Assembly (NCBI RefSeq): GCF_030063305.1
Contig: NZ_JASISV010000002.1
Location: 496,001 to 560,000, forward strand
Length of the DNA: 64,000 nt
Origin: Salinibacterium sp. G-O1
Lineage (GTDB): Bacteria > Actinomycetota > Actinomycetes > Actinomycetales > Microbacteriaceae
Direction: 5' to 3'
The position numbers were made by a program, and so were the translations under genes. The notes under the pieces were generated by a model that was given only the letters and a program-made list of their open reading frames with translations, did not search any database and had not been told where the DNA came from. The stretch's first letter is position 1. Every line of letters begins with the position of its first letter. Shown piece by piece: positions 31,148 to 47,449 of this stretch.

Positions 31148-31155
31148 GGGGGCTG

Positions 31156-32028: not shown

Positions 32029-32037
32029 AGGTGGATC

Positions 32038-32058: not shown

Positions 32059-32157
32059 CGCGGCCGGTTTCGAATTTCGCGCAACGTCACGAAGCGACAG
32101 GAGGCCGTACCGTCAAAGCCAACGCAGCTAACCCAACGCCTCCGACAATTCGCTGGC

Positions 32158-33045: not shown

Positions 33046-33141
33046 TTGGTCCCCCGCTCGTGGGTGCAACTCATTGATAGAGGTTCATATGACCACAAAT
33101 TTGGTCTTCCGAACAGAGACCAATCCGCGTTAACTGGTCGC
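33046..33141. promoter_or_regulatory. shared promoter region with repeated TTGGTC/GACCAA motifs
   Basis: The 96-bp divergent region contains GACCACAAATTTGGTC at 33091-33106, an inverted pair with one extra base change, plus TTGGTC at 33046-33051, GACCAA at 33118-33123 and CTGGTC at 33134-33139. Clusters of repeated and inverted half-sites are typical of MocR-type GntR regulators. Confidence 0.55.
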
Positions 33142-34566: not shown

Positions 34567-34600
34567 GCGGGTCGACATCGACGGCGCCTGCAATGAGTAT

Positions 34601-34643
34601 GTAGGGCGGATGGGACTTGAACCCATGACCGACGGATTATGAG
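34601..34643. repeat. left attachment site (attL)
   Basis: Exact copy of the 3' 42 nt of the tRNA at 47376-47449 plus one flanking base. It stops within the anticodon region (ATTATGAG) and then diverges, so it cannot encode a tRNA. It lies 34 nt after the MocR stop codon. Confidence 0.92.
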
Positions 34644-34959
34644 CGCGTCGGATGGCGCTTACCACCCCTGACCAGCGCACACCATTCCGAACCACTGAGA
34701 CCCATCGTCCCCGTAGTTCAGGGGAAGTTGGGTCCGTCACCGGAGGTCACTGGTACGCGCTGCGAGGCCTTGGTCAGGCGCGGTCCGACGGGATTTCGCC
34801 GGGTTCTCGACGCTCTCTCCACATGTTGCGGCACGGGATGGCTGCGCCGATACTCGGTTGGGCGCTCAGTGGTCGGAGGGTCGGGTTGGGCCGGTTGGCC
34901 TCTCTTGCTCCGTTCGTCCGTTACGCACCATCCTCGCCACGGCGGTGCACGGGGTTGGT
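34644..34959. other. intergenic region inside the element's left end
   Basis: I see no convincing gene in these 316 nt. Frames on both strands are open but lack ribosome sites and have low-complexity translations. A short inverted repeat CCCC-GTAGTTCA-GGGG lies near 34711. The region may hold integrase or excisionase arm sites. Confidence 0.4.
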
Positions 34960-35622
34960 CTAGCCCGCGTCCCTTGCCTTGAGGAACTGGCGCAGCTCCA
35001 CGACCTTTGGGATATCCACCCATAGCCGGATGCTGTTCTCGACCACTGAGGTGCCACCGACTCGGAATGCGTCGAAGGGCAACGGGTCCAGGAGCGGTGC
35101 GAGGGCGGCAGCTTTGGCCGCCGACACATACCCAACCTTCCGACCCTTGCCGTGCACCGCTATTGCGCTCGTGTCGTGACGGTTGTTCGGCTCGCGCACC
35201 AGCAGGTACTCGGTGCCGCCGACCTTTCCACGTTCCGCATCTGTTACCCAGTTCGCCGAACCCTTAATTCGCATTCGGATAGAGGGAAGCTCGCGAAGGT
35301 CCAGAACCGTTAGCGACATCGGCTCGACCGATTCCGCCTTGACCGGATTCGCCAGCGCTTCCTCGCGCCGGTCGAGTCGGTCGATTTCCTTCATGTATTC
35401 GTCATGAACGTCGAAGACGCTGAGACCGTGGCGCTCTGCAATCTCAATGCCCACGTCCCAAAGCGACCGACCAGTTGATTTCTCGACCGCAACGATCTCT
35501 GCCGCGATTGCTCTCCGGTCAGCGGCTGGCGGAGTTGCAGGAGCAGGAGGCGATGGGCTTTCAGGAGGCGCAGTACTCGTGCCACCAGCCAGCACTTCCT
35601 TAACCGTGCTCCAGAATCCCAT
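34960..35622 (-). CDS. HIRAN-domain-like protein
   Basis: The 220-residue protein has a Pro/Ala-rich N-terminal segment, a helical middle (residues 40-85), and a C-terminal domain with GGTEYLLVREPNNRHDTSAIAVHGKGRKVGYVSAAKAAALAPLL. This is the HIRAN pattern, a beta-barrel that binds single-stranded 3' DNA ends. It is the only element gene at the left end read leftward, and it diverges from the RHH regulator. A DNA-damage or nuclease-linked role is inferred from the domain; no catalytic domain is attached. Confidence 0.7.
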   Translation of the reverse strand: MGFWSTVKEVLAGGTSTAPPESPSPPAPATPPAADRRAIAAEIVAVEKSTGRSLWDVGIEIAERHGLSVFDVHDEYMKEIDRLDRREEALANPVKAESVEPMSLTVLDLRELPSIRMRIKGSANWVTDAERGKVGGTEYLLVREPNNRHDTSAIAVHGKGRKVGYVSAAKAAALAPLLDPLPFDAFRVGGTSVVENSIRLWVDIPKVVELRQFLKARDAG

Positions 35623-35668
35623 GGGCCGAGCTTATCGAGCGGGTGAGAGCGAGGCTCACAAATAATGA

Positions 35669-35696
35669 CCTTGCAGACTCGCCCTTGCAACCTCGC
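35669..35696. repeat. 14-bp tandem direct repeat, candidate operator
   Basis: CCTTGCAGACTCGC (35669-35682) is followed at once by CCTTGCAACCTCGC (35683-35696), 12 of 14 identical. GAGCGAGGCT also occurs twice in this divergent region (35647 and 35749). RHH regulators bind short tandem repeats, and the RHH gene begins at 35792. Confidence 0.5.
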
Positions 35697-35791
35697 GAAA
35701 TCGGATTCTGACGGATTCTCAGAAAGCCAAGCGGCGCTGTGTCGTTTCGAGCGAGGCTTAGTTAACGACCCCGACAAACGAAGGAGCTGAC

Positions 35792-36013
35792 ATGGCCCGA
35801 CCCAAGGTGCTCGCCAGTGAAATGGTGACGCTCAAGACCCGCGTCGCTCAGACAGACGACGCGGCGCTCAACAGTCTGGCGCAAGCCACCGGTGAAGCGA
35901 AGGCGTCGCACATACGTCGAGCGTTGAGCCAGTACGTTGCGGCGTTCGCTCTGGCGGACCACACGACAACTTCGATTGTCACCCACCCAACACAGAAGGA
36001 GACAACACGATGA
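35792..36013 (+). CDS. ribbon-helix-helix DNA-binding protein
   Basis: The 73-residue protein has a short beta strand (MVTLKTRVAQTDDAALNSLA) followed by two helices (KASHIRRALSQYVAAF), typical of CopG/Arc-like RHH regulators. It is the first gene of the rightward element operon, preceded by AAGGAG. It probably controls the element promoter region shared with the HIRAN gene. Its stop overlaps the next start as ATGA. Confidence 0.75.
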   Translation: MARPKVLASEMVTLKTRVAQTDDAALNSLAQATGEAKASHIRRALSQYVAAFALADHTTTSIVTHPTQKETTR

Positions 36014-36261
36014 CCATTCACAACGCGTGGGGAACCAAGCCTGACCCGGTGACCGGCCTACCGCCATACCCCCTCCGCACGGCCTCGACCCAGACCCGGC
36101 TCAGGAAGCGTGCGGCAGACGCCGCAGCGTTGCGGAAGCAGCTCCAGGCGCGACTGGACTCGCTGACCGAAGAGTTCGAATCGGCGTTCTCAGAGTCCGA
36201 CAAGCTCGCCGCGACGCGACAGCGGATCACCGCCGCCGCTAAGACCCACCGCAAGAACTAA
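36010..36261 (+). CDS. small element protein, unknown
   Basis: This 83-residue basic protein has a Pro-rich N-terminus (WGTKPDPVTGLPPYPL) and a long amphipathic helix rich in Arg, Ala and Glu (residues 25-80). No known domain is recognised. It overlaps the RHH gene by 4 nt, so the two are translated together. Confidence 0.6.
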   Translation: MTIHNAWGTKPDPVTGLPPYPLRTASTQTRLRKRAADAAALRKQLQARLDSLTEEFESAFSESDKLAATRQRITAAAKTHRKN

Positions 36262-36273
36262 GGAGACGCGATC

Positions 36274-36723
36274 ATGCACAACCCGCTCACGGGCACTTCC
36301 CTAGACAGTTTGAGGCTGGAAGCACGCAACGCGAGCTACCCGAACACCGAAGCCGAGATGACGGCGGTGACGAACCGCGAGCACGAGATTCGCCAGTTGG
36401 TCGCCATGCACGAGGACGGTCTCGTGGAGTCCGCCGAGGCTGTCCACCGCTCAGGCGAGCCGCTACTCGCGAAGGCTGATGAGCTCCTGACAGAGATGAG
36501 CGGTCTGCGCACCGACATCGAGCGGGCGGGCACCAGCACCGGTCCCGAGCACGCAGCGCGCTTCGAATCGATCCGCCACCGAATGCAGACGCGCATAAAC
36601 GAGCTGGCCAAGGTGGAGTCCGACGCCCAGTATCACGCCGGGAAGGTCTCGGACCCCTATGGATCGCTGGACAACATCCGTCGCAAGTACCCCGCCATCG
36701 TGGCTGGTCGACGCATCAGCTGA
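36274..36723 (+). CDS. coiled-coil element protein, unknown
   Basis: The 149-residue protein is mainly helical and charged, with a likely coiled coil from about residue 25 to 125 (NREHEIRQLVAMHEDGLVES, RFESIRHRMQTRINELAKVE). It has no membrane segment and no recognised domain. It lies 12 nt after the previous gene with AAGGAG upstream. A terminator-like hairpin follows. Confidence 0.6.
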   Translation: MHNPLTGTSLDSLRLEARNASYPNTEAEMTAVTNREHEIRQLVAMHEDGLVESAEAVHRSGEPLLAKADELLTEMSGLRTDIERAGTSTGPEHAARFESIRHRMQTRINELAKVESDAQYHAGKVSDPYGSLDNIRRKYPAIVAGRRIS

Positions 36724-36732
36724 ACATGACGA

Positions 36733-36760
36733 TGGCCCTACAGATTCACCTGCAGGGCCA
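36733..36760 (+). terminator. hairpin after the early element genes
   Basis: TGGCCCT (36733-36739) and AGGGCCA (36754-36760) pair perfectly around a 14-nt loop, directly after the stop at 36723. There is no T-tract, so attenuation is more likely than full termination. Confidence 0.45.
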
Positions 36761-36792
36761 CCACCTGAACAACCACGAAAGGACACCACGAC

Positions 36793-37368
36793 ATGTCTCT
36801 ACCAATAACGCTACCTGAGCGGGCTTACTCGCCGCAGTTCGGCCCATTCGACCACTTCGCGCGGGCATGGAATCGCGATCTCGAAGCTGAGCCGGAGTTC
36901 GACCTCGACGGAAGGCGATCGCCCTTGTTGCGTCTTCCAGCAGTGTCTATCGGAACCCTCCACTACACCGCACCGCCCATCGAGGACATGCATCTCACCA
37001 CCAGAGGAATGGTGACGGAAGCCTGCCTCAGGCTGGCTCGCTGGCGATGGCAGGACGGCAAGGCGTCGGCGTGGTGGATCGCCAAGCGGCTGGAGGGAAC
37101 CTACTTCCCTACCGGCGTCGACGGCTACCGTCGCAACGGCGACCCGCTCACGCGCATCCCGCGCAAGGGTCTGGCGCTCATCGCCGCAACCGACGCGCTG
37201 AACTCCGGCGGCGTCGAGTGGTATTGCGAAATACCGCGCGACGACGATCCATGGTCTTTCGAGACCTTGCGCCTTTCGGCCGCACTTGCAAAGTTCGAAG
37301 GTTCTCGTTTGAACGCGCAAAGGGCAGTCTCCTCAGCCGCCCAGCGGCGACCCCAGCTGATCGAGTAG
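36793..37368 (+). CDS. element protein, unknown
   Basis: The 191-residue protein is rich in Trp, Arg and Leu, with RWRWQDGKASAWWIAKRLEGTYFPTGVDGYRRNGDPL in the centre. No membrane segment and no catalytic motif are recognised. It begins after an AAGGACACC ribosome site. It is followed by a 257-nt gap before the excisionase-like gene. Confidence 0.6.
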   Translation: MSLPITLPERAYSPQFGPFDHFARAWNRDLEAEPEFDLDGRRSPLLRLPAVSIGTLHYTAPPIEDMHLTTRGMVTEACLRLARWRWQDGKASAWWIAKRLEGTYFPTGVDGYRRNGDPLTRIPRKGLALIAATDALNSGGVEWYCEIPRDDDPWSFETLRLSAALAKFEGSRLNAQRAVSSAAQRRPQLIE

Positions 37369-37547
37369 CGTTAACAGCGAACCGGTCATAGCGGCTCGCG
37401 AAAGAAACGAAACGCAAGAGAACATACGGAACCGAAGACGACGAGCAAGACCCAAATGCAGCACCACTACGACATACCCAGCCTCGACTAGTTCGAGTCT
37501 GCTCACGCTGAATCCTCAGGAGTACAGGCGTACGGGCGAGTGGAGAA

Positions 37548-37568
37548 CCACCTTCGACTTGAAGGTGG
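37548..37568. promoter_or_regulatory. 8-bp hairpin upstream of the excisionase-like gene
   Basis: CCACCTTC (37548-37555) and GAAGGTGG (37561-37568) form a perfect stem with a 5-nt loop, 57 nt before the TTG start. The rest of the 37369-37625 gap has no visible gene. It may be an operator or an attenuator for the replication module. Confidence 0.45.
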
Positions 37569-37625
37569 CGACTCCCAACCGTGCGCCCTTTCTGCATTAA
37601 AGCGCAGCTCCCCAAGGAGACTGCA

Positions 37626-37844
37626 TTGCAAAACATCAATCCTGAGCATCCCGCCGCCCCCGGTCGTCTGCTCGACACCGCCGAAGTCGCTGAACTTCTG
37701 CACATTACTCCCCGACAAGTCGCTCGACTACGGCAATCCGGAAAGCTCAAGTCCGTCCGCATCACGGGCGCGGCGGCTCGGCACACCATTGCCCAAGTCC
37801 AAGGGTTTGTAGCCGAGCACTCCAACGACGAAACGGCGCTCTGA
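37626..37844 (+). CDS. excisionase-like helix-turn-helix protein
   Basis: The 72-residue protein contains LLDTAEVAELLHITPRQVARLRQSGKLKSVRITGAAARHTIAQVQGFV, a MerR/excisionase-type winged helix (HTH_17). The TTG at 37626 is chosen because AAGGAG lies six bases upstream; an ATG at 37581 has no ribosome site. It may direct integrase toward excision or regulate the replication genes that follow at once. Confidence 0.75.
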   Translation: MQNINPEHPAAPGRLLDTAEVAELLHITPRQVARLRQSGKLKSVRITGAAARHTIAQVQGFVAEHSNDETAL

Positions 37845-37845
37845 C

Positions 37846-38184
37846 ATGCGCGATCCATCGACTCGATGGTTGGCAGTGCGCTCGCGAGCCGACATGTCAC
37901 CGTGGCTCGTTCAGAAACTCGAGGCCCTACGCGACCGCTTTCGCGACGAGTTTGCGGGAAGCGACTCCGTCGTCATCTGCGGCCTCAATGGCGGCGTGAA
38001 GGACGAGGAGTCCGTCGAAGGGCGCACCTGTGACCGCTGTCGCGTCTACACCCCGAACATCTGGAGGCACTGGTACACCCTTCGCGCTGAGGGCTACGTC
38101 ATGCGAGTCGAATCCAAGTTCTGCACGCCCTGCGCACAGGGCGAAGGGTTCCCAACCGGTCGGAGGCCTGACAGAACCGGCTAA
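37846..38184 (+). CDS. small Cys-rich element protein, unknown
   Basis: The 112-residue protein has two CxxC pairs (CDRC near residue 62 and CTPC near residue 93), a likely zinc ribbon. It starts one base after the excisionase-like stop and precedes the TOPRIM primase-like gene. A zinc-binding accessory domain for the primase is one possibility; nothing in the sequence proves it. Confidence 0.6.
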   Translation: MRDPSTRWLAVRSRADMSPWLVQKLEALRDRFRDEFAGSDSVVICGLNGGVKDEESVEGRTCDRCRVYTPNIWRHWYTLRAEGYVMRVESKFCTPCAQGEGFPTGRRPDRTG

Positions 38185-38223
38185 CCGTCCAGCCCGCGCG
38201 CCCACCAAGGCAACGACGCGCTC

Positions 38224-38916
38224 ATGCACCAATTCCGCAGAGCGACCACGAAAGTAGCACTCCCCATGAACGACACAGCACGGCGAAAGCGCGAAGTCTG
38301 TCGGTACGACTTCACCGACGAGCGCGGGCGCCTGGTCTTCCAGAAGGTCAGATACGCCATCGATAGTCCCGGTCCTGGCGGTCGGACCAAATCCTTCAAG
38401 TACTACAACCCGAACGCCTTTGGTGGCATCGGCGGCTTTGGCAAGCCAGAGGGCGCAGACCGGCTCATCTTCAACCTGCCGGCCACCCTCGCAGCCACCC
38501 GGGCAGGTGAGACGATCCACTCGACCGAGGGCGAGAAGGACGCACTCGAACTCATCAAGCGGGGCTATGCGGCCACCAGCGTTCACCAAGGAGCCAACAA
38601 GGTCACGGTCGAGCAGATGGCATGGCTGTACGAGGCACCGCGCGTAGTGCTCTGGGTCGACAAGGACGTGGAGCATCCGGAGGTCGGCGCGCACGATGCG
38701 GCGATGCGGCATGACCACCTACTGCGGCTGGGCTACCCCGGCATCATCGAGTTCCGGCGCGCACGCGGTCCGTGGGGCGGTCTGAAAGACATTGCGGATC
38801 ACCTTGCCGCTGGCTACACCGTCGATCAGGCCGTTCGGGTGAGCCCCGCTCGCCTCGCCGCATGCGCAGCGCAGTGGACCCCTGCCGATAACCGGAGGGC
38901 TCGCTATGTCCTCTGA
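38224..38916 (+). CDS. TOPRIM primase-like protein
   Basis: The 230-residue protein starts with CRYDFTDERGRLVFQKVRYAID and has a TOPRIM core: STEGEKDALELIKRGYAATS with the catalytic Glu and VVLWVDKDVEHP with the Asp-x-Asp-like pair. This pattern occurs in the primase part of plasmid and phage primase-helicases. An internal ATG at 38266 is an alternative start. It overlaps the helicase gene by 11 nt, so the two work together in element replication. Confidence 0.75.
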   Translation: MHQFRRATTKVALPMNDTARRKREVCRYDFTDERGRLVFQKVRYAIDSPGPGGRTKSFKYYNPNAFGGIGGFGKPEGADRLIFNLPATLAATRAGETIHSTEGEKDALELIKRGYAATSVHQGANKVTVEQMAWLYEAPRVVLWVDKDVEHPEVGAHDAAMRHDHLLRLGYPGIIEFRRARGPWGGLKDIADHLAAGYTVDQAVRVSPARLAACAAQWTPADNRRARYVL

Positions 38917-40189
38917 CGGAACCCGCTCATTCAAGTTGCTCAAAGGCGGCGGCATGGAACCCATCGATAGCCCTAGTGAAGCTGTCGATGACGACCCGTT
39001 CGTGCCAAGGGAGCAGAAGGCGCGCGCCCGCCGGAAACAGACCGGCGAATCGTCGATCCCCGAAAACGTCCTGCTACTGCGCGAGAACCAGCCTTCGAAG
39101 GCCATCGTTCGGTTCGCAAACGACATCAAGTCGCGTCGGCAGAAGTTCCTTTGGCAAGACCGGATTCCAATAGGAACTGTCGGTCTGTTTGCCGGTCGTG
39201 GTGGTGTCGGCAAGTCCACCTTCGCGATCTGGCTCGCGGTCGAGGCACAGCATGGCCGTCTGCCGGGTGACCTTCAAGGTGAGCGCGTGGTCGTGCTGTA
39301 CGTGTCCGTCGAGGATCACTGGGAGACGCAGATGAAGCCGCGCCTCACGGCGGCGGGTGCTGACATGGCGCGGTTCGGCGCCCTCACAATCCAGTCGAGC
39401 GTGGATACAGCGACCGGAGAGCGCATTCCGCTTCTCCCAGAGGACACCGAGGCAGTCCGCAACGCGATCGTGGACACGGGCGCTCGCATCGTGATCCTCG
39501 ATCCGATTACGTCCACCGTCTCCGGCGACGACCATAAGCGCGAGATCGTCCGCGCCGTGCTCGACCCTCTGGCGAAGGTCGCCGGTGAGACCGGCTCGGT
39601 GATCCTCGGCATCATGCACTTCAACAAGGGTGCAGGGGCCGCGAGCGACAAGGTCTCCGGGTCTCATGCATATCGAGACGCGGCGCGCTCGGTGATGCTC
39701 TTCGCCAAAGACGAGGAATCCGGCCACGTCGTAATGACGCAGGACAAGGGCAACTACGCCGACTTCGGAGACATGTCTCTCGAGTACGACCTTGTGGACA
39801 CCGTGGTCGAGTTGGACGACGGTGAGCTCGCCCATGTCGCCAAGGTGAACATGATCGGCGAGACCAGCACGTCTGTCGGCGAGATCATCAACCGCGTTCC
39901 CGTGAACGACGAGGTCGTTCGATGGCTCATGAACTACATGACCGAGAGCGCCGGTCCTGTACCGGCAAAGCAAGCTGAGGACGACGGCAAGATCGAGGGC
40001 TTCTCGGTGCACCAACTCAAGCGCGCCCGAGCGCGGTGCCGACCGCAGATCGTCGCGAGCAAAGTCGGCATGACCGGCCCGTGGATGTGGTCGTTCGCCG
40101 AAGAGAGTGCGAAGAGCGCTGTGACCACGGACGGCGCACTCTTCTCAGAATCCGCGGCACCACCGCGCACTCTTCAGGAGCCGAAATGA
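38906..40189 (+). CDS. RecA-fold replicative helicase/ATPase (RepA-like)
   Basis: The 427-residue protein has a Walker A motif GRGGVGKST at residues 97-105 and a Walker B RIVILDPITS, with GILGIMHFNKG-type motif and SHAYRDAARSVMLF further on, as in AAA_25/RepA-like hexameric helicases. It follows the TOPRIM gene, overlapping by 11 nt. The C-terminal third is likely a DNA-binding region. Its 3' end runs into the iteron-like repeats. Confidence 0.85.
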   Translation: MSSDGTRSFKLLKGGGMEPIDSPSEAVDDDPFVPREQKARARRKQTGESSIPENVLLLRENQPSKAIVRFANDIKSRRQKFLWQDRIPIGTVGLFAGRGGVGKSTFAIWLAVEAQHGRLPGDLQGERVVVLYVSVEDHWETQMKPRLTAAGADMARFGALTIQSSVDTATGERIPLLPEDTEAVRNAIVDTGARIVILDPITSTVSGDDHKREIVRAVLDPLAKVAGETGSVILGIMHFNKGAGAASDKVSGSHAYRDAARSVMLFAKDEESGHVVMTQDKGNYADFGDMSLEYDLVDTVVELDDGELAHVAKVNMIGETSTSVGEIINRVPVNDEVVRWLMNYMTESAGPVPAKQAEDDGKIEGFSVHQLKRARARCRPQIVASKVGMTGPWMWSFAEESAKSAVTTDGALFSESAAPPRTLQEPK

Positions 40190-40285
40190 AGGGTGCGCGT
40201 CGCTCCCCGAAGAGTGCGGCGAACTCCTCAGTAAAACCAAAAGAGTGCGCTCCCCGAGCACACAGCACTCTTCGGCGCACTCTTC
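40135..40285. repeat. iteron-like array, candidate replication origin
   Basis: CGCACTCTTC occurs at 40135, 40166 and 40276 with a one-mismatch copy at 40264; the inverse GAAGAGTGCG occurs at 40209 with a one-mismatch copy at 40240. Six copies in 151 bp in both orientations, directly after the helicase gene, are far above chance. Position and structure fit an origin recognised by the element replication proteins. Confidence 0.7.
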
Positions 40286-40359
40286 GGGAGAACACGACCC
40301 AATCGACCACTAGGAACACCACATCGACGCATGAAACAGAAGTTGGAGAGACGACATGA
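40186..40359 (+). CDS. possible 57-aa basic protein inside the iteron region
   Basis: The frame starts with ATG overlapping the helicase stop (ATGA) and ends overlapping the next start (ATGA), with GGAG five bases upstream. The product is rich in Arg, Ser and Thr. The double overlap suggests translational coupling, but the composition is dictated by the repeats, so it could be a chance frame. Confidence 0.35.
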   Translation: MKGARRSPKSAANSSVKPKECAPRAHSTLRRTLRENTTQSTTRNTTSTHETEVGETT

Positions 40360-41156
40360 CGAAGAAGAAGGACGATCGACCGAGGGGTGAAGCTGCACCT
40401 TGGAAGGACGGGCGGAAGCCTGCTGTGACATGCAGTGCACGGACTACTGCTGGGTTCCCATGTAAGAGACCACCCATCAAAGGCTCAAACGTCTGCCGAG
40501 CGCACGGCGGGGCAGCTCCTCAGGTGCGCGCTGCCGCACAGGTCCGCATCCTCATGAGCGCGGATGCAGCAGCGGCCAAGCTCATCGAGATGATCCATTC
40601 GAAGAAGGTTGCAGACAACGTCAAGCTCGCCGCTGTGAAGGACTTGCTCGACCGAGCGAACCTGTCGGGCATACAAAACATCGAGGTCGGAGTTACCAAG
40701 CGGGACTTCTCCGACATCAGCTCGATCATCTCGATGGATCTCGACATGAGCGACTTGGACATTGTCGATGCGGAGGTGATCGAGGAGGACGACAACAGCC
40801 CGCTGGTGCCCCGCGACATCGACGGCGTCCCGCCTGCTCGCACACGTGGCGACCGGAACTTCGAAGCCGTGATCGAGAAGGGTCGTCGCGCAGAGGTTCA
40901 GCGGATGCGGTCGGGCGGGATGAGCGTCTCTGAGCGCGCGCGCCGCGAAGCCGAGGCCTTCGCCCAAGCGCCATCTTCAACCGACAGCCGGGGCAAGGCC
41001 GCGTACCTCGCCGCCCTCGACGCTGGGGCGAGCCACGACGATGCCGAGCGGGCAGCCAAGAGGGCTGTCGAGGGTGGCGACGACTCCGGGAAACGGCGTG
41101 CCAGGACCAGCGAGGCCACGATGGGCCAGCGGCGCTCAAAGCGGGATCGGTCCTAG
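40356..41156 (+). CDS. small terminase-like protein
   Basis: The 266-residue protein has an N-terminal CxxC/CxxHGG segment (CSARTTAGFPCKRPPIKG, VCRAHGGAAPQVRAAAQVR), then helices with VKLAAVKDLLDRANLSG. This matches a family often found as small terminase subunit-like proteins beside actinophage large terminases. No large terminase is present here. In phage satellites a private small terminase redirects helper packaging. The C-terminal half is acidic then basic, with no recognised domain. The terminase call rests on motif resemblance only. Confidence 0.55.
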   Translation: MTKKKDDRPRGEAAPWKDGRKPAVTCSARTTAGFPCKRPPIKGSNVCRAHGGAAPQVRAAAQVRILMSADAAAAKLIEMIHSKKVADNVKLAAVKDLLDRANLSGIQNIEVGVTKRDFSDISSIISMDLDMSDLDIVDAEVIEEDDNSPLVPRDIDGVPPARTRGDRNFEAVIEKGRRAEVQRMRSGGMSVSERARREAEAFAQAPSSTDSRGKAAYLAALDAGASHDDAERAAKRAVEGGDDSGKRRARTSEATMGQRRSKRDRS

Positions 41157-41166
41157 GCATGAGCAG

Positions 41167-41214
41167 GATGGGCGCTCCCCAACGCAATCACGGGGTCTGG
41201 GAGTAGCGCCCATC
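41167..41214. promoter_or_regulatory. long imperfect hairpin after the terminase-like gene
   Basis: GATGGGCGCT (41167-41176) and AGCGCCCATC (41205-41214) pair exactly, with further partial pairing inside. It begins 10 nt after the stop. The rest of the 41157-41377 gap has no visible gene. It may act as a terminator or, speculatively, a packaging site. Confidence 0.45.
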
Positions 41215-41377
41215 CCACCGTCCCGACCAGCCCTGCGACCACCCAATGACGCGGCTGAATTTGGCTTCTGACCAGCTATTTGCCTTCTCGCCCGCGCTGG
41301 AGTTGAGTAGCCCTCGCCGCCAGTTCTACGGAATCGGCGGCATCCCACGAAAACCAACCGAAGGACCGGAACACGAG

Positions 41378-41827
41378 ATGACCACGACGAAGAACAACAA
41401 GACCACCGCTCCCCTCGCACACCGCGTGCCTACCGCGGTGAGCGCGACGATTCAGGAATACACCGCTTGGTTGGAGGGCCAGACTGGCGTCAAGATCGAC
41501 GCCCTCAGCGTCTACTTGGGTAGCCAGCTCCGAGGCACATGGCAGAAGAGCGCTGAGCGACAGGCTGAGCTTGCCGACGCAGCAGCCGCGAGGGTACTGG
41601 CCGACGCTGCCAAGGCCAAGGCGAAGGCCGCTCGTGAAGCCGCCGCTGTTGCGAAGACCGCTGAGCCTAAGGACAAGCCCGTTGCCAAAGCAGCACCGAA
41701 GGCCGCACCCAAAAAGGTTGCGCCGAAGCGCCCCACCAAGGCCGGTTCGACCATCGCTGCGACGGGAAACGACGGTCAGCCCGTCGTCATCGCCGAGACC
41801 AATCACGTCGACGCGGTGCAGGCATGA
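41378..41827 (+). CDS. element protein with Ala/Lys-rich tail, unknown
   Basis: The 149-residue protein has a compact N-terminal part (VPTAVSATIQEYTAWLEGQTGVKIDALSVYLGSQL) then a long Ala/Lys helix and KAAPKKVAPK-type repeats like histone H1 tails, which suggests nucleic acid binding. The ATG at 41378 is preferred over an upstream frame without a ribosome site. Its stop overlaps the next start (ATGA). Confidence 0.6.
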   Translation: MTTTKNNKTTAPLAHRVPTAVSATIQEYTAWLEGQTGVKIDALSVYLGSQLRGTWQKSAERQAELADAAAARVLADAAKAKAKAAREAAAVAKTAEPKDKPVAKAAPKAAPKKVAPKRPTKAGSTIAATGNDGQPVVIAETNHVDAVQA

Positions 41828-42198
41828 GCACGGACCAGCCGACGACACCCGGCGCGCGAATAGCGCTGACACACACCACGGACGAGCACACGCGATTGCA
41901 GCCGAACACCATGGGCACGGTGCTACACGTCGACGACCTCGGCACCGTGCATGTGCGCTTCGACACCGGCGAGACGTTGGGGCTCATTTCCGGCGAGGAC
42001 GAGTGGCGTTCGCTGCACCCGCGCTGGGACGTGCAGCGCATGACCGGCACGACCGATGCACGCTCTCGACGCGGTCGGCTCCGCATGCAGCTTGCCGAAC
42101 TCATGGATAGCAACGCGCCACGTGCCGAGATCGAGGCGGTCCGTTCACAGATACAGCAGCTCAACATCCAGATCGAGGAACAGGACGGCCACCGATGA
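41824..42198 (+). CDS. DUF4314 domain protein
   Basis: The 124-residue protein has GARIALTHTTDEHTRLQPNTMGTVLHVDD and VHVRFDTGETLGLISGEDEW, the DUF4314 core, an SH3-like barrel found in plasmids, integrative elements and phages of Gram-positive bacteria. A C-terminal helical tail follows residue 75. Function unknown. It overlaps both neighbours by 4 nt. Confidence 0.75.
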   Translation: MSTDQPTTPGARIALTHTTDEHTRLQPNTMGTVLHVDDLGTVHVRFDTGETLGLISGEDEWRSLHPRWDVQRMTGTTDARSRRGRLRMQLAELMDSNAPRAEIEAVRSQIQQLNIQIEEQDGHR

Positions 42199-42968
42199 AC
42201 GCCGTCATGTACCTTCGCGTGTCATCCGTGGGTCAGCTAGATGGCTTCGGCCTCGACGTTCAGGAAGAAGCGTGCCGTGCATATGCCAACGCTCACGGTC
42301 TTCACATCACCGCCACGTTCCGCGACGAGGGTGTGTCGGGCATGTTAGACGCCACCGAGCGCGAAGGGCTCATGGATGCCCTTACGGCGTTGCAGGACGG
42401 GTCAGTGGACCTGCTGTTAGTCGCGCGGCTTGACCGTCTCGCTCGCTCGCTCACGGTGCAGGAGGCCGTGCTCGCGCAAGTCTGGACGGCGAATCGCACG
42501 CTGCACTCTGCGGACGTAGGCGAAGTCCTGCGCGATGACCCCGACGACCCCTTGCGCACCGCGATGCGGCAGATGGCCGGTGTGTTTGCCGAACTAGACC
42601 GAGGCATGGTTGTGAAGCGCATGCGCGACGGCCGCAGGGCTAAGGCAGCACAAGGCGGTCGCGCGGTCGGGCCTGCACCCTACGGCTATCTCGCGAAGGA
42701 CGGCATGCTGCACCTCGTCCACGCTGAACAGCTCGCCCTCGCACGCATGCACGAGCTGCGCTTGACCGGCTGCACGATGGCCGAGATTGCCGTCACCCTT
42801 GCCGAGGAAAACCATCCGACCAAGCGAGGCGGCGGCTGGTCCAGCCCTGTCGTGAGTCGCATCCTGTCCCGCCCGCCAGTGCCGCTTGTGCAGATCGCCG
42901 ATGTGGACCTGTCCGAAGCCATCACCCCTACAAACCTCACCAAGGAACCTGCGGCACATGCCGCCTAA
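42195..42968 (+). CDS. serine recombinase (resolvase/invertase family)
   Basis: The 257-residue protein has the catalytic N-terminal resolvase domain: YLRVSS with Ser10, DEGVSGM and LLVARLDRLARS with the catalytic Arg residues. A short recombinase domain follows (GPAPYGYLAKDGMLHLV, LTGCTMAEIAVTLAEE). It is shorter than large serine integrases and lacks their zinc and coiled-coil domains, so it may be a resolvase for multimers or for inversion. It is the second recombinase in the element. Confidence 0.85.
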   Translation: MNAVMYLRVSSVGQLDGFGLDVQEEACRAYANAHGLHITATFRDEGVSGMLDATEREGLMDALTALQDGSVDLLLVARLDRLARSLTVQEAVLAQVWTANRTLHSADVGEVLRDDPDDPLRTAMRQMAGVFAELDRGMVVKRMRDGRRAKAAQGGRAVGPAPYGYLAKDGMLHLVHAEQLALARMHELRLTGCTMAEIAVTLAEENHPTKRGGGWSSPVVSRILSRPPVPLVQIADVDLSEAITPTNLTKEPAAHAA

Positions 42969-42984
42969 TCAGTAAGGAAACGCT

Positions 42985-43242
42985 ATGTCGAACTACACCC
43001 CAGGGACCGTTGTCACCGTCGGCGCGCTTGCCGTCGGAGACTCCATCTTTCTCCGCGAACGCCGGGCGGTTGGACTGGCCGTCCCAACCCATCCCGCCAC
43101 GGTCACCGAACTGGTTCCGTCCACAGACGGTCGAGTCCTGGTCCGTGTGAAGAGCGCGAACGCCGGAAGCGATGCAGCGCCGCGCGTTCTGGGTCAGCTC
43201 CCTGCCACCCGCGAGTTCCGCCGCGCGGTCGCTGTCATCTGA
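42985..43242 (+). CDS. small element protein, unknown
   Basis: The 85-residue protein appears all-beta, with VTVGALAVGDSIFLRERRAVG and RVLVRVKSAN. The ALxVGDxI motif recurs in the next gene. AAGGAAACG precedes the start. No known domain is recognised. Confidence 0.55.
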   Translation: MSNYTPGTVVTVGALAVGDSIFLRERRAVGLAVPTHPATVTELVPSTDGRVLVRVKSANAGSDAAPRVLGQLPATREFRRAVAVI

Positions 43243-43245
43243 CCC

Positions 43246-43518
43246 ATGCGAACGCGTCCCCTGCCCGAGCGCAAGACTCTCGGCACCGCCTGGAACCTCC
43301 GACCCGACACCGAGCGTGTCGAGGCGCGAGCGCTCCGGGTGGGGGACGTCGTCATGGAAAGCCCCGACCACCCATTCCGCATCGCGAAAGTGACGCACCA
43401 GAACGGCGTCATCGTCCACGGCAAGTACGTCTGGCAAGACGATCGCGAGAAGTCCTGGATGCTCTCCCGGTTCTCCAACAGCCACGTTCTCGACCGAGCC
43501 ATCCCCGGCGAGTACTAA
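43246..43518 (+). CDS. small element protein, unknown
   Basis: The 90-residue protein contains ARALRVGDVVMESPDHPFRIAKVTHQNGVIVHGKYVW, a probable SH3-like barrel with the same ALxVGDxV motif as the preceding gene, so the two may be distant paralogues. It starts 4 nt after that gene and is followed by a short gap with direct repeats before the integrase. Confidence 0.55.
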   Translation: MRTRPLPERKTLGTAWNLRPDTERVEARALRVGDVVMESPDHPFRIAKVTHQNGVIVHGKYVWQDDREKSWMLSRFSNSHVLDRAIPGEY

Positions 43519-43547
43519 TTCCGAAATCTCAACCCAATTCCGAAATC
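43517..43547. repeat. 12-bp direct repeat upstream of the integrase gene
   Basis: AATTCCGAAATC occurs at 43517-43528 and 43536-43547, 19 bp apart, ending 18 nt before the integrase start. It could bind a regulator or excisionase. Confidence 0.5.
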
Positions 43548-43564
43548 CCACCAAGGAGCACAAC

Positions 43565-44776
43565 ATGGCACACGTTCGAGAAGTTCCCCGCAAAGGTTCG
43601 TCCAACGGAATCGCTTATGAGGTGCACTGGCGACTGCCGGGCGGTAAGAAGGTGCAGCAGACCTTCACTGTAAAGCGCGAGGCCGAACGGTTCGCATTGC
43701 GAGTGGAAAGCGACCTCGGCGACGGACAGACCACCGCGCCTCTCATGCGAAAGTCCAAGACCTTCGCGCAGGTCACCGAGGCAGCGCTGGCTGCGAGTGC
43801 CGGGCGGCTCAAGGTGCGCACGCAGGAAGGGTATCGGCAAATGCTCGACCGGCACGTCCTCCCGACTTTCGGCACACGCCGCATCGCCTCCATCACCTCC
43901 GCGAATTTGGAGCAGTGGATTGCCCAGCTGACGTCCACACAGAAACAACGCGGTGGCTCGCGCCTGCACCCGTCGACCGTTCGACACGCCTTCATCGCGG
44001 CGAACAAGGTCTTCCGCTACGCCTTGCGGCACCGGATGATCGTGCATAACCCCGCTACTGGCACCGAGCTTCCGAGAGTCCAGCACACCGAGAAATTCGC
44101 GCCGCAGTTTCTTTCGGGTGCAGAGGTCGAGGCGCTTGCAGAAGCGCTCTCGGGATCCGCCCCGGACGATCTGCTGGTGCGTGTCGGTGCCTATTGCGGA
44201 CTCCGCGCCGGGGAACTGGTGGCACTGCGTGTGGGCGACGTGGACGTGCACCGAGGCCGCATCCGTGTACAGCGCACACTCGTACGGACCCCGGACGGCT
44301 GGATCGAGGACTCCCCCAAGTCGGCGAACTCCACGCGCACCGTTCCAATGACCAAGGAGCTTGCAGCTCTCCTGCGTGACTATCTCGCCGCGCACCCACA
44401 CGGGGACGACCTCGGCGCGCCCTTGTGGCCAGGACGCAACTACGCAGGCGGCGGCGAATGGCGTGGCGCGCTCGACTGGTCCAAGCGACTCGACTACGAC
44501 AGCTTCTACAGGCGTCGGTTCAGGGTCGCCGCTGAAACGATCGGTCGACCAACGCTCCGATTCCACGACCTGCGACACACCGCAGCGAGCCTGTGGGCGA
44601 TGCACGGAATGGCGATGGAGCGCGTCGCAGCAGCACTGGGCCACGCCGACACCGGGATCACCTACAAGACCTATCTGCACTTCTTCCCGGATCAGTGGGA
44701 CGCCGACATGGCTCGCTTCTCGGCGGGCCTCGCTTCCCCGAGCGCGCGGGTCACGCCGCTGCAGCGAGAGGCTTAG
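43565..44776 (+). CDS. int: tyrosine recombinase / integrase
   Basis: The 403-residue protein has an AP2-like N-terminal arm-binding part, a SAM-like core-binding domain (about residues 65-160), and the catalytic domain with Arg214 (GLRAGEL), Lys252, His334/Arg337 (FHDLRHTA), His360 (LGHADT) and Tyr370 (TYLHFF). Such enzymes insert elements into tRNA 3' ends, as seen here at both repeats. AAGGAG precedes the ATG. Its 3' end overlaps the convergent OLD-family gene by 4 nt. Confidence 0.95.
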   Translation: MAHVREVPRKGSSNGIAYEVHWRLPGGKKVQQTFTVKREAERFALRVESDLGDGQTTAPLMRKSKTFAQVTEAALAASAGRLKVRTQEGYRQMLDRHVLPTFGTRRIASITSANLEQWIAQLTSTQKQRGGSRLHPSTVRHAFIAANKVFRYALRHRMIVHNPATGTELPRVQHTEKFAPQFLSGAEVEALAEALSGSAPDDLLVRVGAYCGLRAGELVALRVGDVDVHRGRIRVQRTLVRTPDGWIEDSPKSANSTRTVPMTKELAALLRDYLAAHPHGDDLGAPLWPGRNYAGGGEWRGALDWSKRLDYDSFYRRRFRVAAETIGRPTLRFHDLRHTAASLWAMHGMAMERVAAALGHADTGITYKTYLHFFPDQWDADMARFSAGLASPSARVTPLQREA

Positions 44777-46737
44777 GCGATAGCTTCGTTCAGCTTGACG
44801 AATGCTTTCTCGAACCTCTCGACGGTGTCGGGGCTGATCGTGCTGAAGAACTCCGGCTGGTTGTAAGTAAGCGCGTGCGCGGGGAGAGCGTGATCGAACC
44901 AACCGTGCAGGTCGATCAGCTTCTTGATGATCGGGACCGGCGTAGCAGGAAGATCAGACTCCTGCACGTTGCGGGAGAACGCCCAGTTGTACAGCTTCAA
45001 GTAGTCGACCGGCGCGAACAAGTCCTCAATGTCTGCAGTAGCCGGGAGTGCGGTATCGATTTCGCTCACGGCGACGATCGTGGTCGGATCGACACCATTC
45101 TCTTCGGCTGCCTTCCGCGCTCGATCGAGGGTCGCCGCAGTTTTGCTCCCATCGACCAGTGCGGACACCTTGAGCCGACGTCCCATCAAAGCCACGAACG
45201 CTGGCATGTTGGAAATACCTCCGACTGGAATGATCGCGAGCCGAGGGCTGAGTGGGGTCTTGCCGTTCTGTTCCATGTAAGAGCTGAGCCGCATGAGGTA
45301 GATGAAGTCGCTGCTGCCTTCCACCGCGAGATGGGGTCCCGAGCCGAGGAACAGGTGCTGGCTGATCGTGTAACCGAGGGCGGACTCGACGGGCAAGATC
45401 GTGTCCCTGTCCGCAGAGAGACTCACGTGAGTCACCGCCACGCCGCCTTCGTTGTCTTCTCGCGTGGCTTTGTCGTGGACCGCCCGAAGCTTTTCGTACA
45501 CTTCTGGATCGATCATGAACTGCGAATGAGTTGTGTAGATCGTCTGCTTGGATGCGCCGAGCTCGTTGAAGATGTAGTCAACGAAGTCCTTCTGCGCCTC
45601 GCCGTGAAGACTCGTGCCGGGCTCGTCGAGCAGGACAACTACGGGCTTGGAAGTGTGCTGGTACTCACTGAATGCAGCGAAGAAGGAGAAGAACCACTGG
45701 AACCCGGTGGATCGGGTCGAGAAGTTCGTCTCTACATCTCCATGACGAGCGTCACGCAGTTCGATCTTCAAGATTCGGTGATTGTCCGTGCCTCCTGTTG
45801 AAGGGTTCGCAACCGCCACATTGTCGTCGCCGAAAATGACCGCGAGGTCTGTGTTGACCTTCCAGTAGTTGAACACTTCGCGGCTCAGGTCGGAGGCTGC
45901 CGCCTGCAACTCGGCCTTGCGGCTGTCGTAGTTCGAATCAAGGAAGTCTTTTGGCTGCACACCTGCGTGTGCAAGGAGGGACACGACAGTTTGATTCTCT
46001 TCGCTGAGTGCAGTACCTGCGCCGACCGTTGCTGCTAGCTCAGTTAGGTCTGTCTCCCCCGGCAGGACGCTGTAATTGGAGAAGTAGAAAAAGGTTGGAA
46101 CGCGCGCAGCGAAGGCGTCAAGCTGGTCTTGCTCCAAGACGGCTGGCTCGACCTGATAGCGGTACTTATCCGCCGATCCGGCGAATCCGCCTACAGCCTT
46201 CGCCCGGGTGGGCTCTCGCTCCTTGAGCGCCTTTGCCAACTCTTTGGACTTCGCGATAGCCGCATCGAGCGTCTCCTCGCCGAGCAGTTCGTCTATTTCC
46301 TGAGCGGCGATTGATGCATCTGCACCCGCCGCCTGGATGACTTCCGCCAAGTCGGCTTCAAGCCAGACATAAAACTGGTTCGCGTAGCTCTTTGCCGCAA
46401 ACACCTTGGTGTCAAGAAGAAGCGGGCCTGGCAGTACTCCGTCAAGTGCGTCGATGTCGCTCTGCTCGACCGCAAATTCGGCACTTACGGGCCTCGTATT
46501 TTGCAGGTTCGGGTCCGCCCTGCGATCGCGGGCAAGACGCCAGCGAGGATACTCCGTGACAAGTTCAAACTTCCTGCTGTCACCGTTCGCGGGGTGCAGC
46601 CGATGCAGAGCTTTTAGGATCGTTGTCTTGCCAGACTCGTTCTTGCCGACGAGCGCCGTGACGTCACTCTCGATTTCTATCCGTTGGGGCTCCACAAAGT
46701 TGCGGAACTTCTGGATAGTCACAGCGACCAACTTCAT
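44773..46737 (-). CDS. OLD-family ATP-dependent nuclease (AAA ATPase plus TOPRIM)
   Basis: The 654-residue protein has an SMC/ABC-type ATPase: Walker A GKNESGKT at residues 31-38, a signature-like STRSTGFQW near 340, Walker B VVVLLDEPGTSLH near 367-379 and a switch His in TTHSQF. The C-terminal TOPRIM domain begins VEGSSD with Glu473 and has VDGS with Asp529, where the second acidic residue of DxD is Ser. OLD proteins are anti-phage nucleases or exclusion factors. It stands alone, with no helicase partner, so it is class 1-like. GGGAG precedes the ATG at 46737. Confidence 0.85.
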   Translation of the reverse strand: MKLVAVTIQKFRNFVEPQRIEIESDVTALVGKNESGKTTILKALHRLHPANGDSRKFELVTEYPRWRLARDRRADPNLQNTRPVSAEFAVEQSDIDALDGVLPGPLLLDTKVFAAKSYANQFYVWLEADLAEVIQAAGADASIAAQEIDELLGEETLDAAIAKSKELAKALKEREPTRAKAVGGFAGSADKYRYQVEPAVLEQDQLDAFAARVPTFFYFSNYSVLPGETDLTELAATVGAGTALSEENQTVVSLLAHAGVQPKDFLDSNYDSRKAELQAAASDLSREVFNYWKVNTDLAVIFGDDNVAVANPSTGGTDNHRILKIELRDARHGDVETNFSTRSTGFQWFFSFFAAFSEYQHTSKPVVVLLDEPGTSLHGEAQKDFVDYIFNELGASKQTIYTTHSQFMIDPEVYEKLRAVHDKATREDNEGGVAVTHVSLSADRDTILPVESALGYTISQHLFLGSGPHLAVEGSSDFIYLMRLSSYMEQNGKTPLSPRLAIIPVGGISNMPAFVALMGRRLKVSALVDGSKTAATLDRARKAAEENGVDPTTIVAVSEIDTALPATADIEDLFAPVDYLKLYNWAFSRNVQESDLPATPVPIIKKLIDLHGWFDHALPAHALTYNQPEFFSTISPDTVERFEKAFVKLNEAIA

Positions 46738-46810
46738 TGGATCTCCCTCGATACCTGTATGACGCTCAGGATATCGGCAGGCAGCGACACTCCATGCCCC
46801 CAGACTGGGC

Positions 46811-47278
46811 TTAGCCCAAACATGCAGTCGCGTCGCCGATGCCAGCCCCGGCTTCCGCAATCACGTTGGAGACCGGCATCATGACGACCGTGTGCGAGGC
46901 TGTCACGTCGTCAAGCGGAAAGACCATCGACGTTGTCTCGCCCGAGGGGTCCTCTCCTGCTCCCCAGGAACCCAGAATCTCCTCACCCGATGGCGACGTG
47001 TAGAGGAGCGCCACCGAGAAGTATCTACCACCGGACGGCACCGCCGAGCCGCGAGTCACTGTGTACCCCTCTTCCATGAATCCCTGAATGTGGGCGACCC
47101 AAGTTGCGCTCATCATTAGGCACTCTGGTGCAGGCTCGGGCACTGCGGTCGGGCTGGCGTCCTGCGTCGGCTGGGTGGTCTGCGTGGGTCGAGGCGCTTC
47201 ATCTTGCTCGGCGGACGAGAGTCCGGAACACCCTGCAAGCGCGAGGACCAGGACGGCAAGAGCGATGGGACGGAACAT
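46811..47278 (-). CDS. putative lipoprotein in element right end
   Basis: The 155-residue protein has a signal peptide (MFRPIALAVLVLALAG) with lipobox LAGC, a Thr/Gln/Pro-rich linker, and a small beta-rich domain with one Cys pair (Cys near residues 54 and 153). It is oriented like the OLD gene and may be co-transcribed with it. Surface lipoproteins in mobile elements sometimes block superinfection, but no homologous family is recognised here. Confidence 0.65.
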   Translation of the reverse strand: MFRPIALAVLVLALAGCSGLSSAEQDEAPRPTQTTQPTQDASPTAVPEPAPECLMMSATWVAHIQGFMEEGYTVTRGSAVPSGGRYFSVALLYTSPSGEEILGSWGAGEDPSGETTSMVFPLDDVTASHTVVMMPVSNVIAEAGAGIGDATACLG

Positions 47279-47374
47279 GCCGCAACCGTATCGGTTCTCG
47301 AACGCGGACGGGATTTGGACGGGATCGGCTCCGGGACCTCGCAGCGCCGACACCCAACTTCCCCGTAAACATTC

Positions 47375-47417
47375 GTAGGGCGGATGGGACTTGAACCCAT
47401 GACCGACGGATTATGAG
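47375..47417. repeat. right attachment site (attR), within the tRNA gene
   Basis: Exact 43-bp match to 34601-34643. It forms the 3' 42 nt of the intact tRNA gene plus one flanking base, so the element restores the tRNA on integration. Confidence 0.92.
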
Positions 47418-47449
47418 TCCGCTGCTCTAACCAGCTGAGCTACCGCCCC
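47376..47449 (-). tRNA. tRNA-Met (CAT anticodon)
   Basis: The minus strand folds as a 74-nt tRNA: acceptor GGGGCGG with CCGCCCT (first pair G-U), D stem GCTC/GAGC, anticodon stem GCGGA/TCCGT with loop CTCATAA, T stem ATGGG/CCCAT with loop TTCAAGT, discriminator A. CCA is not encoded. The CAT anticodon fits elongator Met; a tRNA-Ile2 modified by TilS is an alternative. Confidence 0.92.

Follow-up and report, generated by a model that had tools for sequence, protein, structure and literature searches.

What kind of element occupies the 12.8-kb region inserted at a tRNA gene in Salinibacterium sp. G-O1? The region lies within a 64-kb stretch of the genome, here called the window, and carries genes for integration, replication and packaging of DNA but no recognisable virus shell, so it probably parasitises bacterial viruses and spreads inside their particles. 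Phage-inducible chromosomal islands (PICIs) and related satellites carry an integrase, a regulator, replication genes, an origin and often a gene for a small terminase subunit (TerS). A sequence-only reading of the window had proposed such a satellite, and our comparisons favour the same interpretation. The element is probably an integrated satellite of tailed phages and one of a 9.9-12.8-kb family of Microbacteriaceae, a status that derives from comparison with six other elements that have one gene order in common with it. Five of these come from five other genera in a sample of the bacterial family and one is present in Agromyces.

Boundaries and integration site

The element is spanned by a perfect direct repeat (43/43 positions identical) at 34601-34643 and 47375-47417, which bears out the boundaries first proposed, including the placement of one copy in an intact tRNA. 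When both strands of the 64-kb window were searched with up to 12 mismatches, the repeat was found in these two copies only; a chance repeat was considered as an explanation and discarded. The right, attR-type copy forms the 3' portion of tRNA-Met(cat), an intact gene on the minus strand (47375-47449). The left, attL-type copy (minus strand) reproduces the 3' 43 bp of tRNA-Met, and together with adjacent bases it still scores as a tRNA (34602-34668, 30.9 bits). The GC content of the element (0.625) is close to that of the window (0.633), so the element is not marked by composition.

Corresponding regions of 15 genus mates were scanned for the tRNA, att sequences and flanks, and eight of them were compared gene by gene. 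In all eight, both conserved blocks are located at one tRNA-Met, with 1.5-5.6 kb from the left block to the tRNA, while the window carries more variable DNA left of the element, at about 16.3-34.6 kb. The suggested search for empty sites was thus answered in part: relatives without the element at the same tRNA exist, but none gave an empty site that is clean on both sides.

Gene content of the element

At the regulator end, cargo is represented by a HIRAN-domain protein of at most 220 aa with uncertain start (34960-35622, minus strand; PF08797, E 1.8e-10). One genus mate has a relative of this protein with 55% identity (L038), in a locus without other element genes. The co-oriented core, on the plus strand, begins with an RHH-type regulator (35792-36013). 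The claimed regulator gene is present and clusters with five of six relatives, but its family match taken alone is weak (RHH_1, E 0.0065, 16.8 bits against a cut-off of 20.5). A match of the same protein to a tail-fibre-helper family (E 0.082, half the Pfam cut-off) was read as chance. The next three genes are g3 (36010-36261), a small protein recognised by position and alignment A5, whose BLAST cluster comprises five relatives and leaves the window copy outside; g4 (36274-36723, 149 aa); and g5 (36793-37368, at most 191 aa). The last two are family markers, present in 7/7 elements. Profiles of g5 and g4 gave no convincing match to solved structures (best E 0.14 and 0.0081, respectively), and the predicted structure of g5, with mean pLDDT 37, was left out of analysis.

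Further along the core are an excisionase (Xis)/AlpA-like HTH_17 protein (37581-37844; PF12728, E 8.5e-7; phrog_66, 1.2e-6), a 112-aa open frame without family match in Pfam or PHROGs (37846-38184), the TOPRIM-primase half of the replication protein (38224-38916; phrog_239, 8.5e-11) and its AAA_25 replicative helicase half (38906-40189; PF13481, 1.6e-27). The candidate origin (39939-40355) and the TerS gene (40356-41156) follow. Downstream are g11 (41246-41827, at most 193 aa; phrog_20596 of unknown function, 5.4e-10), with relatives in elements L033 and L035; a DUF4314 protein (41824-42198; PF14192, 3.9e-19), also present in L032; a small serine recombinase of 257 aa (42195-42968; PF00239, 7.8e-29), found in 7/7 elements; g14 (42985-43242, 85 aa) without family match; g15 (43246-43518, 90 aa), which occurs in some relatives and clusters with those of L031 and L033; and a tyrosine integrase (43565-44776; PF00589, 2.8e-21), again in 7/7 elements. 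The integrase, excisionase-like, primase-like and helicase genes claimed earlier are all supported by these matches.

Two minus-strand genes complete the right end, where accessory genes had been expected. One codes for an AAA + TOPRIM nuclease of OLD/AriA/GajA type (44773-46737; AAA_15, 4.4e-23), probably anti-phage cargo, which PADLOC matches to AriA (1.1e-23) and Old (7.6e-16); its OLD-like TOPRIM match (0.0085) is below cut-off. The other is a putative lipoprotein with uncertain start (46811-47353; LPAM_1, E 0.006, below cut-off). The sequence-only reading had omitted the serine recombinase, the OLD/AriA-like nuclease, the HIRAN protein and the DUF4314 protein. A simple gene caller recovered 16 of the 18 listed genes; the two that it missed are Xis and its downstream neighbour, the 112-aa frame.

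Structural, large-terminase (TerL) and conjugation genes had been reported as absent, and Pfam agrees for the window element and its six relatives. Capsid, portal, TerL, relaxase and FtsK families are not among the element's Pfam hits at E <=0.1, and across the six relatives 57 non-core proteins yielded 19 Pfam families in all, with no virion, TerL or transfer family among them. The no-virion result is a Pfam result; the PHROGs scan of the relatives listed 25 of 59 matched families.

Identification of the small terminase

By itself, the window TerS, a 266-aa protein of the HGG zinc-knuckle type, is weakly matched by phrog_2538 (E 0.0043), with an NCBIfam HGG_STG match at 1.9e-8; the call was settled by comparison with relatives. 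Profile A1 consists of nine rows, seven from the family and two from L036 and L037, loci outside the seven that have a TerS-like gene without the core. It matched the solved phage TerS structures 7joq (E 1.2e-8) and 6w7t (3.9e-7), the next match being at 0.0049. A mostly viral profile matched solved small terminases at 1.6e-5 and 1.9e-5, and the match of profile A7 to solved TerS covers the helical region, with the zinc knuckle outside it. Among the best 80 of 188 confirmed loci of viral TerS relatives, 70 have a gene of at least 330 aa within 3.5 kb downstream and ten lack a usable downstream gene; in at least 48 of the 70, the next large gene matches a large-terminase family. With these homologies and viral neighbours, the case that the gene described earlier as small-terminase-like encodes a small terminase subunit is now good.

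Direct searches reach less far. The window TerS as query found no phage match, the Agromyces TerS weakly matched a single phage, Margaery (two records, E 4e-3), and the L036 protein, alone among such queries, retrieved 29 phage records. A fold search with the TerS model returned no PDB match at E <=0.001 and three viral models at that threshold; among viral models, a metagenomic myovirus protein ranked first, Microbacterium phage Megan second and FuzzBuster fourth. A TerS tree, which has too few columns to be more than a hint, groups five of the seven family proteins (99/92), places L035 among viral rows and does not resolve L032. Several phages have HGG-type proteins annotated as hypothetical, and these may, we suggest, be small terminases as well.

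A family of seven elements

All seven elements share a common order: RHH, g3, g4, g5, Xis, primase/helicase, iterons, TerS, serine recombinase, tyrosine integrase, cargo. Their core reading frames are open in our own gene calls, and direct repeats 9.9-12.8 kb apart bound each of them. L034 uses tRNA-Met, as does the window element, and its repeat is likewise 43 bp (copies 98% alike); L031 has a 61-bp repeat at tRNA-Ser, L032 48 bp at tRNA-Thr and L035 55 bp (96%) at a tRNA-Phe/Tyr pair. In L022 and L033 the repeats are shorter and imperfect and lie at the same protein gene.

The elements differ in the combination of their parts. L022 has integrase (77% identical) and site in common with L033 but a different helicase type, and has helicase and cargo (80%) in common with the window element but a different site. 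The integrases of the window element and L034, which share the tRNA-Met site type, are 60% identical. Judged from these sequences, the modules integrase plus site, helicase plus iterons, and cargo are shuffled among the elements, and these three exchangeable parts can be set apart. Defence-type genes are present in 5/7 elements. The nuclease of the window element and the cargo protein of the Agromyces element are 80% identical, and cargo of the relatives includes SIR2 and restriction-type genes. The recurrent slot beside the integrase, with its defence-type genes, is a practical place to search for new anti-phage systems.

Because five of the seven elements were retrieved through TerS, its presence in these five is by construction; L022 was retrieved via its helicase, yet has TerS. 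The g5 profile was built from the seven elements themselves, so a search with it is no independent test of TerS presence; it gained two incomplete elements that are outside the count of seven, L172, a 5.6-kb remnant without TerS, and L173, cut by a contig end. Altogether g5 was found in 8/398 genomes of the family. An order-wide g5 search (2/396) and a class-wide g4 search (2/374) each detected the same two genomes, that of the window and G105, which belongs to the same bacterial family, and neither sample yielded a member from outside that family. We also noted that a hairpin followed by a U tract recurs between g5 and xis, though covariation backs it little (a double change in 3 of 14 pairs).

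Replication module and iterons

Primase and helicase are two genes in the window and a single gene in the six relatives. The window helicase shows 43-48% identity, over 61-66% of its length, to Microbacterium phage primase/helicases (20 matches listed), and with the helicase alone as query 45 records of Microbacterium phages were matched. The claimed iteron array was confirmed: AGAGTGC occurs seven times in 417 bases, spanning the helicase 3' end and the helicase-TerS gap, and is the densest 7-mer array within the element. Shuffled sequences contained at most four copies (0/200 shuffles reached seven). Helicases of the window element, L022 and L034 are 60-62% identical and the iteron core CCGAAGA is common to all three, although the L034 count was reached by 29/200 shuffles and is weak evidence for that element. 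The other four elements lack CCGAAGA at that place and have different repeats instead.

One helicase search yielded 23 viral-contig loci. TerS, g4 and g5 were found in none of them, and six had an integrase- or serine-recombinase-like match. Two further pattern scans of viral contigs, of a kind that reaches close relatives only, gave no match; in these searches no member of the family came to light among viral contigs, which counts against the satellite interpretation.

Relationship to known satellites

SaPI-type PICIs encode an integrase, regulators and accessory functions and have an origin with iterons; their regulators adjoin the integrase and are transcribed separately from it. This arrangement is found in none of the seven elements, where the RHH-place gene and the integrase occupy opposite ends of one co-oriented core; compared by description, the core here runs in one direction from the regulator to a distant integrase. 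Further differences are the HGG zinc-knuckle type of TerS, the serine recombinase in 7/7 elements and the lack of a recognised capsid-size gene. The two types are alike in the replication module and in having their own TerS, as some SaPI-type PICIs do according to PMC6092414, which also describes their packaging in helper particles; for the present elements such packaging is proposed. A TerS homologue or a helper cos/pac site characterises the SaPI type; of these, the elements have the former, and neither a pac nor a cos site was recognised.

PICMI, the minimal satellites of Vibrionaceae, contain an integrase, AlpA/HTH_17 and primase, lack capsid-remodelling genes and protect their hosts; they are inserted beside fis, the prototype has 6.1 kb, and the main text of PMC10803314 does not use the word terminase. 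Our family resembles them in having an integrase, an HTH_17 protein and a primase without capsid-remodelling genes, and in a proposed protection of the host, but has 10-13 kb, a tRNA or protein-gene site instead of fis, and TerS. The PICMI primase is of the DUF3987/DUF5906 type; the window primase is of another, with neither family among its Pfam hits.

It had been remarked earlier that few satellites of actinobacteria are described, which holds only in part. Candidate PICIs with a capsid gene are reported in Mycobacterium; they are likewise small integrated elements with integrase, but are defined by that capsid gene (PMC10654092), which by Pfam our family lacks. The capsid-forming Streptomyces satellites MulchRoom and MiniFlayer carry capsid, portal and both terminases (PMC10690885), whereas here Pfam finds no own capsid, portal or TerL, and TerS only is present. 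Microbacterium phages FuzzBuster and SM23, whose HGG proteins were retrieved with L036 and not with a core element, have an HGG-type protein near the terminase, with a primase gene 0.8-1.5 kb before it, but are complete phages of about 55 kb. What differs here is the capsid-less, TerS-carrying type; our literature search found no description of this family.

Origin and proposed life cycle

Two features expected of satellites in general are present: att-bounded, site-specific integration in 7/7 elements, and own integration, regulation and replication genes without virion genes. TerS homology, TerL beside its viral relatives and defence-type cargo agree with the satellite interpretation, as do relatives that lack the element at this tRNA. 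A decayed or minimised prophage, left by a temperate phage stripped of structural genes and persisting as an immobile defence island, would account for the replication genes resembling those of Microbacterium and Arthrobacter phages, for a phage-derived TerS and for the remnant L172. We regard it as very unlikely, as seven elements in varied hosts and sites retain the same open core of 9.9-12.8 kb with TerS and, by Pfam, no TerL or capsid, and exchange modules; independent decay would hardly be expected to leave an identical gene set seven times.

An integrated mobilizable element or plasmid, dependent on helper conjugation machinery and keeping TerS for another DNA-binding role, also seems very improbable. 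Helicase relatives do occur on actinobacterial plasmids, and DUF4314 and serine recombinases are found on many mobile elements. Against it, Pfam detected no relaxase, FtsK-like transfer protein or type IV secretion family in the window element or the 57 non-core proteins of its six relatives, and two family TerS proteins had no match in 72,556 plasmids. Most improbable is a static genomic island with defence genes and a relic integrase: the core frames are open, and hosts that differ carry similar integrases at a shared site (L022/L033; window/L034), a sign of movement. In its favour are the rarity of g5 and the 26 genus mates, none of which matches element DNA outside tRNA/att-like stretches, a HIRAN stretch and a stretch of 42 bases. 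An ordinary prophage and a conjugative element were considered and discarded.

As a satellite, the element would rest at the tRNA-Met 3' end, where the RHH regulator probably keeps it silent. Infection by a helper phage, or its induction, may lead to excision by Xis and the tyrosine integrase, after which the primase/helicase would replicate the element from the iterons just before TerS. Given its identity, TerS could recruit the helper's large terminase and direct satellite DNA into helper particles, and in the next cell the integrase would return the element to the tRNA. The OLD/AriA-like nuclease, like the relatives' SIR2 and restriction-type genes, may shield its carrier against other phages. 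The genome itself lacks the PF05065 capsid and has only a marginal large-terminase match (E 6.7e-4), so it gives no sign of a resident helper prophage. As the family is defined by sequence and many phages are on record for the host bacterial family, helpers can be searched for at once.

More speculatively, and rather doubtfully, these elements may form a distinct class of TerS-directed, capsid-less satellites of actinobacterial phages, packaged as head-to-tail multimers in full-size helper heads, with the serine recombinase reducing multimers to single copies and the hairpin before xis acting as a switch between resting and mobile states. Microbacterium phages with HGG-type TerS are about 55 kb long, and four to five copies of 10-13 kb would fill a helper genome of that size.

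The element and its relatives

The sequence-only reading had described a 43-bp direct repeat around the element, and this was borne out: both copies (34601-34643 and 47375-47417) are perfect, and the repeat ends where an intact tRNA-Met has its 3' end. Eighteen genes are listed between them, 16 of which were returned by a simple gene caller, the other two being the excisionase gene xis and a 112-aa frame. Identification of the integrase, excisionase-like, primase-like and helicase genes is clear, and the iteron array is real, with a single 7-mer occurring seven times within 417 bases, a count reached in 0 of 200 shuffles. The RHH and small terminase (TerS) identities are weak when judged from single sequences alone. 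Genes for a serine recombinase, an OLD/AriA-like nuclease, a HIRAN protein and a DUF4314 protein had been overlooked.

Searching GTDB contigs with the helicase yielded one relative, in Agromyces sp. Root81 (L022; Microbacteriaceae). The TerS-like protein matched 8 of 398 genomes of the window's family, namely its own and seven others, and five of these seven, belonging to five genera, contain the whole core (L031-L035). Presence of TerS in these five relatives is by construction (ASCERTAINMENT), since they were found through it; L022, detected by its helicase, carries TerS as well. A profile of the core protein g5, built from the seven elements and searched against an equal number of family genomes (398), matched eight: the window, the same five, an element interrupted by a contig end (L173) and a remnant at a tRNA-Gly (L172), which has 5.6 kb between its repeats and in which primase/helicase, TerS and integrase all went unmatched. 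Among the 398 genomes this profile turned up no complete element lacking TerS, a test that is not independent, as the profile comes from the seven.

Clustering recovers g4 (another core protein), g5, primase/helicase, TerS, serine recombinase and tyrosine integrase in the same order in all seven elements. RHH and Xis cluster in six each; L032 has a gene in the RHH place and L022 an Xis-like reading frame visible in its sequence, both assigned by position. The primase/helicase is encoded by two overlapping genes in the window and by one in the six other elements.

Direct repeats bound every element, at spacings of 12,774 nt (window), 11,297 (L022), 11,424 (L031), 10,288 (L032), 11,160 (L033), 9,888 (L034) and 11,679 (L035). 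Over the reported length they are imperfect in L022 (78% of 37 bases) and L033 (86% of 28 bases), the copies agreeing exactly over a stretch on the 3' side; these two elements have a protein-gene integration site in common, and flanking genes as well. L034, from another genus, is also integrated in tRNA-Met(cat), at a site adjoining a glycosyltransferase gene of, by eye, the same kind as the window's.

The insertion site in genus mates

In 26 genus mates, the DNA of the element matches only tRNA- or att-like stretches, a HIRAN stretch (one genome) and a 42-base stretch (another). In eight mates compared gene by gene, homologues of window positions 13.4-15.9 kb and 47.9-54.1 kb flank one tRNA-Met, which lies 1.5-5.6 kb from the left conserved block, versus 31 kb in the window; of this distance the element takes up 12.8 kb, on the right. 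The ~18 kb to its left (16300-34600) are likewise missing between the conserved blocks of these eight mates and, by this gene comparison, make up another stretch of variable DNA beside this tRNA-Met. Second att-like copies were seen near the same tRNA-Met in 2 of 15 genus mates (L127:7768-7804 and L132:14308-14350), 1.5 and 5.3 kb off, and the site may be an integration hotspot.

Identity of the small terminase

A profile of nine proteins, from the seven elements and from two loci that have a TerS-like gene but lack the core (L036 and L037), matches the solved small terminases 7joq (E 1.2e-8) and 6w7t (3.9e-7), the next match being at 0.0049. With a profile of 48 proteins, 46 of them viral, the two structures are matched at 1.6e-5 and 1.9e-5. 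We take both to be TerS of Pseudomonas phages; the database label reads small terminase subunit only. In addition, phrog_10899 (terminase small subunit) matches two proteins of the relatives.

Of 252 pattern matches to TerS in IMG/VR, 188 were confirmed, and viral neighbours were counted in the best 80 of these 188 loci. A downstream gene of at least 330 aa lies within 3.5 kb in 70 of the 80, and matches phrog_2 (large terminase) in 48 of the 70; other large-terminase families are matched by 19, 19, 16 and fewer of these genes, counts which may overlap, and methyltransferase and ParB families by four each. Among plasmids, two family TerS proteins had no match.

Phage records were reached mainly with the L036 protein as query. 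In SM23, an HGG-type protein (31737-32297) lies 1.7 kb before the large terminase (TerL); in FuzzBuster it is the last gene (gene 85), and the terminase annotation is on gene 6 counted from the opposite end; for Indlulamithi, one of the two records labels the matched protein terminase small subunit. By resemblance, the HGG-type "hypothetical" proteins of the Microbacterium phages FuzzBuster, SM23 and Megan (gene 90) may be small terminases.

The TerS-like genes of L036 and L037, in two other family genomes, lie near genes common to both, comM/yraN-like by eye. L037 also has a primase-like protein (694 aa, by eye) and a serine recombinase, and these loci are possibly a second satellite-like kind.

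Genes looked for and proposed mechanism

Virion, TerL, relaxase, FtsK and secretion families were not found above the Pfam cut-off in the window proteins or in the 57 non-core proteins of the six relatives, for which all 19 Pfam families were listed. Among the PHROGs matches listed for the relatives (25 of 59 families), no structural family except small terminase is present. In the window's own genome no PF05065 capsid was found, and phrog_2 gave a single marginal match.

It would follow from the named gene families that the element integrates, excises, replicates and is packaged under the guidance of TerS. The serine recombinase of the window is a short protein that has a Resolvase domain but, of a Recombinase domain, just the beginning (weak, E 0.0024); this make-up would suit multimer resolution.

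Folding of the g5-xis stretch took in the six elements other than L032. A long two-tier hairpin (z -3.1 to -5.1), with a purine arm on the 5' side that pairs into the U tract coming after it, is present in five of the seven elements (L022:8910-8978, L031:7318-7388, L033:6736-6806, L034:12543-12616 on the minus strand and L035:7526-7586); that of the window is weaker (z -2.6). The hairpin is a possible attenuator ahead of the excision-replication genes. L022, L033 and L035 have in common a GGTAAAGTT box a little upstream of the RHH gene, a candidate operator.

Published descriptions

No published description of this element family was found in the literature on actinobacterial satellites and PICIs, covered mostly without subscription papers, so that absence is unproven. 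One paper raises the possibility that small prophage-like elements of actinobacteria are satellites (PMC10023795), and another names satellites in Actinobacteria (PMC11389934).

Cargo, candidate origins and exchanged modules

Past the integrase, the window and L022 carry the OLD/AriA-like nuclease, L031 a SIR2 protein (PDC-S25, E 8.5e-141), L032 a methyltransferase with a BamHI-type endonuclease, L033 a DUF6575 protein with weak PD-T4-10_B similarity (7.7e-8) and L034 a gene of no family. Cargo at the other end comprises a C5 methyltransferase and Vsr (L035), a kinase (L034), and a UDG-type and an HTH protein (L033). Putative defence-type cargo was counted in the window, L022, L031, L032 and L035.

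In six of the seven elements, the 7-mer repeated most densely lies at the helicase end or in the helicase-TerS gap. Shuffling attains its count in 0 of 200 trials for five of these six and in 2 of 200 for L022; for L034, the exception, the figure is 29 of 200. The window, L022 and L034 have a helicase type and a CCGAAGA core in common, with four, four and three copies there, respectively, and none in the other four elements. The integrases pair differently from the helicases (L022 with L033, 77%; window with L034, 60%), and the cargo differently again (window with L022, 80%); the pattern is, on sequence similarity, the mosaic of exchanging mobile elements.

A related primase/helicase adjoins an HTH protein on a 22-kb Streptomyces plasmid (NZ_CP058979.1; L175), which also carries a GntR regulator, an HNH endonuclease and a tyrosine integrase, and may be an extrachromosomal satellite-like element.
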